A stretch of DNA of 56,436 nucleotides from an uncultured Bacilli bacterium (GTDB lineage: Bacteria; Bacillota_I; Bacilli_A; RF39; UBA660), in NCBI GenBank assembly GCA_944363785.1, contig CALVVF010000010.1:1-56436 (forward strand). Direction: 5' to 3'. The stretch's first letter is position 1; the number at the start of each line of letters is the position of its first letter. The position numbers and the translations under genes are program-made. The notes beneath the pieces were generated by a model. It was not told the DNA's origin. It was given only the letters and a program-made list of their open reading frames with translations, and searched no databases. Below are positions 31,652 through 35,236 of this stretch, piece by piece.

Positions 31652-31754
31652 AAAAAAATAGAGACCGTACCCCCTGGGACGGTCTCCTAAAAAGAATAAA
31701 AAGGGGTTGGCTAGTGTGATACTAGCGACCAATTCGCCAATTTCGAATTGGTGA
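31652..31754 (-). ncRNA. Candidate small RNA (~103 nt), minus strand, between degV and recG
   Basis: There is no usable reading frame. On the minus strand the predicted transcript starts with ACCAATTCG/CGAATTGGT (9 bp, arms 31744-31752 and 31728-31736). It continues with ACTAGC/GCTAGT (31721-31726, 31710-31715), a linker containing ACCCC (31703-31707) and an A/T-rich stretch. It ends in the GC-rich terminator GAGACCGT/ACGGTCTC (31661-31668, 31679-31686) with a following T-rich tract at 31652-31660. The terminator loop holds GGGGGT, complementary to the ACCCC linker, so a pseudoknot is possible. It has its own promoter. It matched no RNA family known to me. Confidence 0.7.
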
Positions 31755-31759
31755 GTCTT

Positions 31760-31788
31760 ATACTAATCGAAATATTAACATTTGTCAA
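31760..31788 (-). promoter_or_regulatory. Promoter of the minus-strand small RNA
   Basis: Minus strand TTGACA (31783-31788), a 17-nt spacer and TAGTAT (31760-31765). A perfect -35, with start of transcription expected at about 31753, directly before the first hairpin. Confidence 0.75.
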
Positions 31789-31975: not shown

Positions 31976-33970
31976 ATGGTTAATGTATCTGCGGTAAAAG
32001 GTATTGGCCCAAAGGCAGTTTCACTTCTGAATAAATTGGGGATTTATACGATTGATGATTTAGCTACCCATTATCCTTTTCGTTATGATATTTTAAAAAG
32101 AAGTGATTTAAGTAAGACTTTACCTGATGAAAAAGTAATTATAGATGGAAAAGTGGAGAGTGTGCCAATTTTACTTCGTTTTAAAGCTGGTTTAAATAAA
32201 TTAAACTTTCGTTTAGTAACGGCAAGTGGTGTTATTGGAGTATCTATTTTTAATCGTGCTTTTATGAAGAATAATTTGACGATCGGGACTAATGTTATTG
32301 TAATTGGTAAGTTTGATCGTGGGAAAAATATTTTAACTGCTTCGGATATTAAGTTTGGTCTTTTAAATAATCAAGCTAAAATAGAAGCGGTATATCATTG
32401 TACTAATGGATTAACCAATAAGAATATGGCAACTTATATCAATACGGCTATTTTATTTCATGGTAAAGAAATTAGTGATTACATTCCTTCTTATTTGCAA
32501 GAAAAATATCATTTTTCTAATAAGCGTACGGCACTTAATATTGTTCATAATCCCCCTACATTAGAAAAGTTGAAGGAAGCACAAATTCGTTTAAAATATG
32601 AAGAACTATTTACCTTTATGTTTAAAATTAATTATTTGAAAGAATTGCACAAACAAGAAAAATCTGGAATTGGTCGTTCTTTGAGTAAAGAAGATGTCGA
32701 GTCTGTTTTACGGATGATTCCTTTTTCATTAACGAATGATCAGTTAAAGGCAATCGATGATATATTTCATGATTTGAATAATTCTTCTAGAATGAACCGT
32801 CTTTTACAAGGAGATGTAGGTAGTGGAAAGACTATTGTTGCGATTGTTGCCATGTATTTAAATCATATTAGTGGTTATCAAAGTGCATTGATGGCACCTA
32901 CTGAAATTCTAGCTACGCAACATTATCAAAATATTGTTCAGTTGTTGGAAAAGACAGATATTCAAGTAGAATTGTTAAAAGGATCTCAGACAAAGAAAGA
33001 GAAGATGGAAATCTATCAGAAGTTAAAAAATGGAGAAATCGATATTATTGTTGGTACTCATGCCTTGATTCAAGAAGATGTTATTTATCAGAGCTTAGGT
33101 TTGGTAGTAACGGATGAACAACATCGTTTCGGTGTTAATCAACGGGCACTATTAAATAATAAAGGCCTTATGCCTGATATTTTATATATGAGTGCAACAC
33201 CGATTCCTAGGACATATGCTTTGACCATTTATGGGGATATGGATGTTTCAACAATTAAGGAGATGCCTAAAGGAAGAATTCCAGTTAAAACGGTGGTTAA
33301 AAAGGAAAGTGAACTTCGAGATGTATTAGAGATGATGAATGAAGAGTTAAAGAAACATCATCAGATTTATGTGATTGCACCACTGATCGAAGAAAGTGAA
33401 AACTCTGATCTTACTAATGTATTACAATTGAGAGATAAGATGAATTTAGCTTTTGGCTCACGTGATAAGATTGATATTGTCCATGGTAAAATGGCTAGTG
33501 GAGCAAAGGATGCTATTATGGAAGAATTTAAACAAAATCGCGTCCAAATTCTGATTAGTACTACTGTAATTGAAGTAGGGGTCGATGTTCCTAACGCTAC
33601 TATGATGGTTATTTTTGATGCCAATAGATTTGGACTTTCTACACTTCATCAATTACGAGGGCGTGTTGGACGAAGTAGTCTAGAAAGTAAGTGTGTGTTG
33701 ATTAGTAATACAGATACGAAACGTCTTGAAGTGATGGAACGTACGACTGATGGTTTTGAAATTAGTGAAGAAGACTTTAAGTTACGTGGACATGGTGATT
33801 TATTTGGAACTAAGCAAAGTGGAGATATGACTTTTAAAATTGCCAATTTAAAGCAGGATTACAAGATTTTAGTTCAAGCTAAAAAAGATTCACAGGAATA
33901 TTTACTTGACACTTCTTATGATGAGGATGAACTAAAAAAATCCTTGATAGATTCAATTAATCATAATTAG
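31976..33970 (+). CDS. recG: ATP-dependent DNA helicase RecG
   Basis: 664 residues. The N-terminal wedge/OB domain begins with VKGIGPKAVSLLNKLGI, followed by YPFRYD. Helicase motifs follow: GDVGSGKT (Walker A), DEQHRFGV (DExH variant of RecG), MSATPIPRT and QLRGRVGRS. RecG remodels stalled forks and Holliday junctions. The length is typical. GGAGGGG precedes the ATG. Confidence 0.96.
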   Translation: MVNVSAVKGIGPKAVSLLNKLGIYTIDDLATHYPFRYDILKRSDLSKTLPDEKVIIDGKVESVPILLRFKAGLNKLNFRLVTASGVIGVSIFNRAFMKNNLTIGTNVIVIGKFDRGKNILTASDIKFGLLNNQAKIEAVYHCTNGLTNKNMATYINTAILFHGKEISDYIPSYLQEKYHFSNKRTALNIVHNPPTLEKLKEAQIRLKYEELFTFMFKINYLKELHKQEKSGIGRSLSKEDVESVLRMIPFSLTNDQLKAIDDIFHDLNNSSRMNRLLQGDVGSGKTIVAIVAMYLNHISGYQSALMAPTEILATQHYQNIVQLLEKTDIQVELLKGSQTKKEKMEIYQKLKNGEIDIIVGTHALIQEDVIYQSLGLVVTDEQHRFGVNQRALLNNKGLMPDILYMSATPIPRTYALTIYGDMDVSTIKEMPKGRIPVKTVVKKESELRDVLEMMNEELKKHHQIYVIAPLIEESENSDLTNVLQLRDKMNLAFGSRDKIDIVHGKMASGAKDAIMEEFKQNRVQILISTTVIEVGVDVPNATMMVIFDANRFGLSTLHQLRGRVGRSSLESKCVLISNTDTKRLEVMERTTDGFEISEEDFKLRGHGDLFGTKQSGDMTFKIANLKQDYKILVQAKKDSQEYLLDTSYDEDELKKSLIDSINHN

Positions 33971-34027: not shown

Positions 34028-34056
34028 TTGACTTCTACTTTTATTTATATTATCAT
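34028..34056 (+). promoter_or_regulatory. Promoter of the plus-strand small RNA
   Basis: TTGACT (34028-34033), a 17-nt spacer and TATCAT (34051-34056). Transcription is expected to begin at about 34062-34064. Confidence 0.7.
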
Positions 34057-34062
34057 TAAGGT

Positions 34063-34163
34063 ACGTGAAGTTCGCTTCACGTAAAAAGGTACTCTTACGG
34101 TTTCAATGTGAGAGTAATTCAACCAAAACCCCCTGAAGGAGCCGAGAGGCTCCACTTTTTGTT
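34063..34163 (+). ncRNA. Candidate small RNA (~100 nt) downstream of recG
   Basis: Three hairpins in order: ACGTGAAG-TTCG-CTTCACGT (34063-34082); TACTCTTAC/GTGAGAGTA (34090-34098, 34108-34116), nine pairs with one G-U; and the terminator GGAGCC-GAGA-GGCTCC (34138-34153) followed by ACTTTTTG. The second loop begins GGTTT (34099-34103), complementary to AAACC (34126-34130) in the linker, which would give a pseudoknot. The linker also has five C in a row. No open reading frame is present. It has its own promoter and matched no family known to me. Confidence 0.7.
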
Positions 34164-34332
34164 TGTATCAAAAAGTTTGTGATCTTTTCGATATATGTTA
34201 AGTAGTTAAAGATTTGGAAAAATCTTTTTTGTATAAAGAAAACCATTAGATAATCTAGTTGCTCAATGAAACTTTAGCAATGTTCTTTTGATAAAAAATA
34301 ATAGGTTTTCTAAGTACAATAATATATGTTTC

Positions 34333-34741: not shown

Positions 34742-35236
34742 ATGAAAAAACAAGAGGCAATGGAATTATCTATAGATAGATCAAGAGTAATGATAGAATA
34801 TCTAGAACAAATATTAAATGATAATGGTATATCGGGTAATATGACTTTTCGTTCTAGTAAAGTAGAAGGAGAAGGGGAGAAAATGTGTACTGTAGATATT
34901 ATGCTAAATAATGGTACAGAAAGACACTTAAATTTAGGTATCACTAGTATGCATAGTGATATTTTTACAAAACAGTTTACTAGTGATTTAGTAGATAGGT
35001 TTGCAAAAGATGACATAATGGGAGTAAGCCCTTATTTTGAAATTAAAAGTATGCCTTCAATGAGTAGAAATGGAATGGATGCTATAAGTATAAATAAAGA
35101 AACAGGTAAGATTAATAATCATATAAAAATAGATTTCTATTATGGAGGACAAAATTTTAATTCTATTATGGAAGAGTATAATAAAAAGTTAAAAGAAGCA
35201 CAAAAAGAAATAGAAGAAATAAAGGTAAGAAAATAA
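34742..35236 (+). CDS. Hypothetical protein, 164 residues
   Basis: A cytosolic protein with no membrane segment and no recognised motif. The N-terminal half is helical; the C-terminus is a Lys/Glu-rich helix (EEYNKKLKEAQKEIEEIKVRK). AAAGGAG lies upstream (34726-34732) and TGGTAAAAT (34709-34717) may be an extended -10. It opens a more AT-rich, accessory-looking stretch with decayed neighbours. Confidence 0.5.
   Translation: MKKQEAMELSIDRSRVMIEYLEQILNDNGISGNMTFRSSKVEGEGEKMCTVDIMLNNGTERHLNLGITSMHSDIFTKQFTSDLVDRFAKDDIMGVSPYFEIKSMPSMSRNGMDAISINKETGKINNHIKIDFYYGGQNFNSIMEEYNKKLKEAQKEIEEIKVRK

Follow-up and report, generated by a model that had tools for sequence, protein, structure and literature searches.

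Background

RsaE/RoxS (RF01820) and the csRNAs (RF02379) are short sRNAs of Gram-positive bacteria with C-rich unpaired seeds. Base-pairing sRNAs are already known, and so is the use of RNA genes, sRNA genes included, as integration sites. Genomic islands in tRNA and tmRNA genes have been described (Islander, PMC4383910). sRNA genes make up 17% of Salmonella prophage sites according to Bobay (2013), as quoted in PMC5502288. The tandem accretion of IMEs and CIMEs has been reviewed (PMC5704250).

Here we analyze a small RNA gene, designated sRNA-A, that lies downstream of recG in an uncultured Bacilli bacterium. The term "window" denotes the whole stretch of DNA analyzed, 56,436 nucleotides long. 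sRNA-A resembles RsaE/RoxS and the csRNAs but, unlike them, has no Rfam match. The elements found at its gene resemble tRNA/tmRNA islands: there is a tyrosine integrase, the insertion lies in the 3' part of an RNA gene, the element restores the gene, and a displaced fragment is found at the far end. However, the target is outside Rfam and is neither a tRNA nor a tmRNA, and the restored part is an equivalent terminator of a different sequence, only the 8–10 bp core being identical. As in the case of enterobacterial prophages, the integration site is an sRNA gene, but the bacteria and the RNA are different, and the elements, which encode a Mob_Pre relaxase along with defence cargo, are rarely met in IMG/VR. 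As in IME/CIME accretion, elements are stacked between repeated att cores, some of them without an integrase; in contrast to it, the elements accumulate in an sRNA gene, and a terminator comes with every module. Integrons likewise hold small modules arrayed at a single site; the sRNA-A-site elements differ from them in carrying arm-domain integrases themselves and in having a terminator after each core.

The new points are the sRNA-A family, terminator swapping and a possible partner RNA. The family, the exchange of non-homologous terminators at more than 100 loci and the arrangement of two sRNAs (A and B) around recG were absent from Rfam and from the literature covered by a limited search. 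This is an sRNA family nearly universal in a large family of uncultured gut Bacilli, with a strong and testable candidate partner. In its gene the promoter, body and seed are chromosomal, and the terminator is repeatedly replaced by mobile DNA.

An sRNA gene downstream of recG

The initial annotation of the region described an autonomous sRNA with a TTGACT-17-TATCAT promoter, hairpins of 8 and 9 bp, a CCCCC linker and a GAGA-capped terminator, with no ORF present and the next gene 580 nt away. All these parts were found. The TTCG loop of hairpin 1 was given correctly, but its stem is 9 bp long.

31976–33970, + strand: recG, the conserved neighbour between sRNA-A and sRNA-B; precedes sRNA-A, in the same orientation, in 106 of 138 loci
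34028–34056, + strand: sRNA-A promoter, sigma-70-type, TTGACT-17-TATCAT; best score in the 2.4-kb region
34062–34083, + strand: hairpin 1, 9 bp, TTCG loop (from folding; compensatory changes in 9 of 9 pairs, 93% of cells paired)
34090–34116, + strand: hairpin 2, 9–10 bp, loop GGTTTCAAT (from folding; compensatory changes in 9 of 9 pairs, 95% of cells paired)
34120–34138, + strand: single-stranded linker CAACCAAAACCCCCTGAAG, the presumed base-pairing seed, with CCCCC at 34129–34133; CCCCCTG is its most constant part
34129–34138, + strand: attB-like core CCCCCTGAAG, found both in the sRNA gene and at far ends of inserted elements
34138–34160, + strand: intrinsic terminator, GGAGCC-GAGA-GGCTCC and a T-run (stem 34138–34153); a near form of this hairpin is displaced at far ends

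The promoter matches the consensus at 10 of 12 positions, a top score that it shares with two other sites in the 2.4 kb. The terminator is the only one in this region, and shuffled sequences give 0.4. The predicted fold has an energy of -36.4 kcal/mol, compared with -23.2 ± 3.5 for shuffled sequences (z = -3.78). Both ends of the transcript are predicted, the start near 34062. No ORF of at least 60 aa overlaps sRNA-A, and the next one starts at 34742. The gene is present in one copy in the 1.38-Mb genome and has no Rfam match at gathering or relaxed thresholds.

Distribution and structural conservation

BLAST relatives of sRNA-A were found in 41 of 98 genomes, essentially all in the host's own family, and a class-wide scan gave a match in 41 of the 54 family genomes. 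With at most one mismatch allowed, the linker pattern matches 221 of 386 family genomes (106 of 150 genera), and the reversed control pattern is rare; some of the one-mismatch matches may be due to chance, and the pattern also misses true copies. A structural (covariance) search added copies with variant linkers, ACCGAACCCCC, that are invisible to the pattern. It detected sRNA-A in 11 of 20 recG-side loci picked for lacking or mismatching the linker pattern.

Outside the family the sole true copy is in G506, a genome of another family (L236, i.e., contig 5, 3 kb), and includes the terminator. It may result from horizontal transfer or from a misassigned (misbinned) contig. Three weak class-level matches outside the family were rejected because they lack A-like sequence, and matches in plasmid and phage collections are AT-rich and were attributed to chance. 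Three linker matches, L043 (+), L141 and L181, proved not to be sRNAs and were taken out before the hairpin statistics; L043 (+) is still one row of alignment A4. Across the genomes searched, sRNA-A is apparently confined to one family of small-genome uncultured gut Bacilli.

Among 150 retrieved distinct sequences, folding gives two hairpins before the linker in 146. The -35 element is TTGACA or TTGACT in 126, the best promoter score is at least 10 of 12 in 127, and the promoter position is near-constant. In 132 of 133 homologues the core runs straight into an intrinsic terminator, for which 79 hairpin types were counted. The invariance of the linker is inflated by exact-match searching, and CCCCCTG is the constant part among the variants seen.

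A covariance search had been proposed in the initial annotation. Our model, R1, was built from a seed of 17 well-spaced sequences including the window's own, and 101 hits were aligned. In the alignment of 95 distinct sequences, both sides have changed in every one of the 18 stem pairs; 94.0% of stem cells are paired, compared with 74.9% in shuffles and 26–54% when the structure is slid along the alignment. Because R1 strongly matches loci that were found independently and every pair shows double changes, the structure is more than chance. The sequence is kept in close relatives and family-wide, no protein is encoded, and the suggestion of an autonomous sRNA after recG is borne out. As judged from this conservation, sRNA-A is a real sRNA gene and represents an RNA family outside Rfam.

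A second sRNA at recG

sRNA-A had been labelled the second sRNA of the region. The label is apt, the first probably being one at about 31753–31655 on the minus strand. We noticed this sRNA, designated sRNA-B, through a search for CCCCCTGAAG, whose complement lies in a hairpin loop about 2.3 kb upstream on the other strand.

31655–31788, - strand: sRNA-B, with promoter TTGACA at 31788–31783 and RNA at 31753–31655; divergent from recG and upstream of it
31752–31728 and 31726–31710, - strand: sRNA-B hairpins
31709–31703, - strand: sRNA-B linker CAACCCC
31686–31661, - strand: sRNA-B terminator
31669–31676, - strand: CAGGGGGT in the terminator loop, the complement of ACCCCCUG of sRNA-A (34128–34135)

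The fold of sRNA-B has a z-score of -5.53. It was found in 341 of 386 family genomes (144 of 150 genera) and not convincingly outside the family. No Rfam family matches it at gathering or relaxed thresholds; against the RsaE model it scores 18.9 bits with a threshold of 79, and the match mostly covers the terminator and the sequence after it. sRNA-B is conserved more strictly than sRNA-A, and its core of about 35 nt is nearly invariant (GCTAGTATCACACTAGYCAACCCCTTTTTATTCTTT). Second partial copies of this core are found in the same genomes at G020:C1:75205-75243 and G024:C25:6031-6071.

The terminator stem of sRNA-B varies, yet CAGGGGG, the complement of CCCCCUG of sRNA-A, is present in 65 of 74 distinct sequences and missing from nine. 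The two genes lie within 4 kb of each other in 24 of 66 cases. Exact complementarity of 8–11 nt is observed in 18 of these 24 pairs, whereas at least 8 nt is reached in 14 of 480 shuffles. In the other six pairs the complementarity is only 4–5 nt and sRNA-A still has CCCCCUGA; pairing of A and B is therefore hypothetical and would not be obligatory. No reciprocal base change was found between A and B; both sites are nearly invariant, and some B loops are lost with A unchanged. MFE cofolding of the whole A and B gains only 1.9 kcal/mol, by a method that cannot model kissing loops. We regard sRNA-B as a plausible but unproven base-pairing partner of sRNA-A.

A tentative alternative, which we hold to be possible but do not favor, is that sRNA-A is a classical sRNA whose C-rich seed blocks ribosome-binding sites of mRNAs in the manner of RsaE/RoxS or the csRNAs, and that the match to sRNA-B is incidental. 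Seeds of this kind usually look like the CCCCCUGA linker, which is unpaired and invariant, and sRNA-B likewise has an unpaired AACCCC linker. But only five CAGGGGGT sites occur genome-wide, namely the sRNA-A complement, the sRNA-B loop, one in a tRNA and two off start codons; AGGGGGTT is rarer than the reversed control (7 vs. 18), and there is no conserved G-run in recG start regions. The recG mRNA itself was considered as a target of sRNA-A and rejected, its start regions being generally not G-rich.

Integrative elements at the seed DNA

The 600 nt leading to CCCCCTGA are 84–86% identical among the window and its relatives G012, G016 and G001 of the same genus. Past the core, the window has no similarity to its four nearest relatives in the first 600 nt; G016 and G001 are 92% identical to each other there, over about 600 nt. 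Downstream modules, terminator included, can be 0.9–1.0 similar where the upstream parts of the sRNA are only 0.36–0.60 similar, and the reverse case also occurs. Thus sequence upstream of CCCCCTGA tracks the host lineage, and sequence downstream, with the terminator, is mosaic.

Integrase genes were sought in the 77 loci with at least 1.5 kb downstream. They are present in 24, all convergent with sRNA-A and 23 of them at 98–315 nt from the core; in the other 53 no integrase was found within 3 kb. Three integrases tested against Pfam matched Phage_integrase and Arm-DNA-bind_4, two of the Arm-DNA-bind_4 matches being below the Pfam cut-off. The 22 extracted integrases show 39–100% mutual identity and keep HxxRH and the tyrosine region; to judge by this, they are one related group.

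Direct repeats of 8–11 nt follow the terminator in 19 of the 24 integrase-bearing loci, compared with 6% of controls. They are mostly 10–11 nt long and spaced by 11–12 nt, as expected of arm sites. Direct repeats of this kind occur in 19 of the 53 loci without an integrase (10% of controls). Comparison of the loci shows that integrative elements with arm-domain tyrosine integrases use the seed DNA, CCCCCTGA(AG), as their attachment core; these elements are presumably mobile today. In the assemblies, elements were not observed in circular form. The combination of CCCCCTGA, a terminator and paired direct repeats could serve as a sequence tag for integrative elements in little-annotated genomes.

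Among viral contigs, four have the linker and one has the native terminator; the elements are rare in IMG/VR. By these counts, the elements are not mainly phages.

Element arrays and their cargo

In G057, G045, G014 (CCCACTGAAG) and G039, the element is followed by CCCCCTGAAG, a GGAGCC..GGCTCC terminator and the chromosome. The arrangement is found with small changes in G033. The displaced native terminator thus marks the far (right) ends of elements.

Elements can be stacked. Three boundaries were recognized on contig 17 of G014, namely the sRNA junction, an internal core accompanied by its own terminator, and the far end; they enclose 10.5 kb with an integrase and 4.1 kb with TOTE and AbiE genes. 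The 4.1-kb module without an integrase is common to two genera (L186, 5054–9170, in G014 and L185 in G057), lies at the far end of the array and encodes a TOTE primase-helicase together with an AbiEii toxin, for which there is a probable partner gene. Further same-strand cores (tandem att) were found in G313 and G024.

The cargo at the sRNA-A site includes a Mob_Pre relaxase, an AlwI-type restriction-modification system and a reverse transcriptase (RT)-protease protein. Several of the tagged elements have defence cargo: restriction-modification, RT-protease, TOTE and AbiE. G313 has arrays in which CCCCCTGAAG delimits the modules (L279, 3104–14246; L278, 2475–15078). Some of these modules lack an integrase, and the arrays encode an AlwI-like restriction-modification pair, an RT-protease protein, a GNAT/AP-endonuclease pair and a DUF4238 protein. 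This locus gives the impression of a defence-gene hot spot.

Two side observations concern other genomes. Small ORFs inside an element of G024 (L280, 11771–15036) look by eye like WXG100/LXG-type secretion substrates. In G028 (L190–L193), a 100-nt repeat is present in at least four copies. It has TTATTTCCAAAACCCCCTGAATATTC at its end, preceded by a GC-rich hairpin, and is a different repeat family that shares the core.

The tandem att-bounded modules of one or two genes in G313, mostly in the same orientation, raise the question of an integron-like platform, in which the promoter and hairpins would be a leader that expresses downstream cassettes rather than a regulatory RNA. We consider this very unlikely, because a terminator lies directly after the core (132 of 133 loci) and the integrase travels with the element: it is encoded within the elements rather than at the platform and contains an arm-binding domain. 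The compensatory changes that keep all stem pairs also argue against a mere leader.

Proposed mechanism

The account that we favor, and consider probable as a whole on comparative grounds, combines a chromosomal regulatory sRNA-A, pairing through its seed, sRNA-B as the likely partner, an attachment core in the seed DNA, replacement of the terminator and stacking of elements. sRNA-A would be a regulatory RNA about 100 nt long, transcribed from a promoter of its own and made up of two hairpins, the constant unpaired seed (C)AACCAAAACCCCCUGA and an intrinsic terminator. It would act by base pairing through the seed. The loop of sRNA-B carries CAGGGGG(U), so that sRNA-B may titrate sRNA-A or else be acted on by it. 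The comparison of loci shows that insertion of an element at CCCCCTGA joins the host promoter, hairpins and seed to a terminator borne by the element. As the element supplies a replacement terminator, the sRNA-A RNA stays complete. The original terminator is moved to the far end, where more elements can stack.

A bolder combination is conceivable, and we put it forward with less than even confidence. The sRNAs flanking recG would be a family-wide pair in which the B loop kisses the A seed, one group of integrases would be specialised on the seed DNA, and the half-host, half-mobile gene would dock a stacking array that carries defence genes. If this is true, a change of terminator could affect sRNA-A in its 3' end, its stability or its level. 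The sRNA-A loci are a natural experiment on the interchangeability of sRNA terminators.

The initial annotation also suggested a pseudoknot between the loop GGTTT (34099–34103) and AAACC (34126–34130), from which sRNA-A could be read as a pseudoknotted cis-acting or ligand-binding RNA. The two segments are indeed complementary in the window, but the complementarity is not kept across homologues: 5 nt of loop–linker complementarity occur in 6 of 146, compared with 4.4 in shuffled loops, and exact GGTTT occurs in three. Moreover, sRNA-A is ended by its own terminator and no gene follows within 570 nt, and we find this reading hardly credible. Promoter-like matches are common here (17 found vs. 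14.3 expected), but a chance co-occurrence of promoter, hairpins and terminator in an AT-rich gap is refuted by the family-wide conservation and covariation, and its probability is negligible.

The region downstream of sRNA-A in the window

No integrase or second core was found downstream of sRNA-A in the window, and no att remnants elsewhere in it. The terminator of the window's sRNA-A is close to the native type. Two further features were delineated.

34156–34240, + strand: probable eroded left end of an integrative element, by local alignment to L063
34742–41158, + strand: variable region from sRNA-A to the chromosomal rarA, without an integrase

The 85 nt after the terminator align to the left end of the element at L063, a locus of another genus with an integrase 134 nt from the core. 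The score is 80, with a maximum of 39 in 500 shuffles. We infer that the window site is an eroded insertion with a decayed element end. Variable genes fill the following 7 kb, as far as rarA. The variable region contains five small ORFs that match no known family, two NUDIX genes, and genes for a DUF7788/DUF2828 protein and an SRA/NOV_C protein. A SUFU-domain gene lies after rarA.
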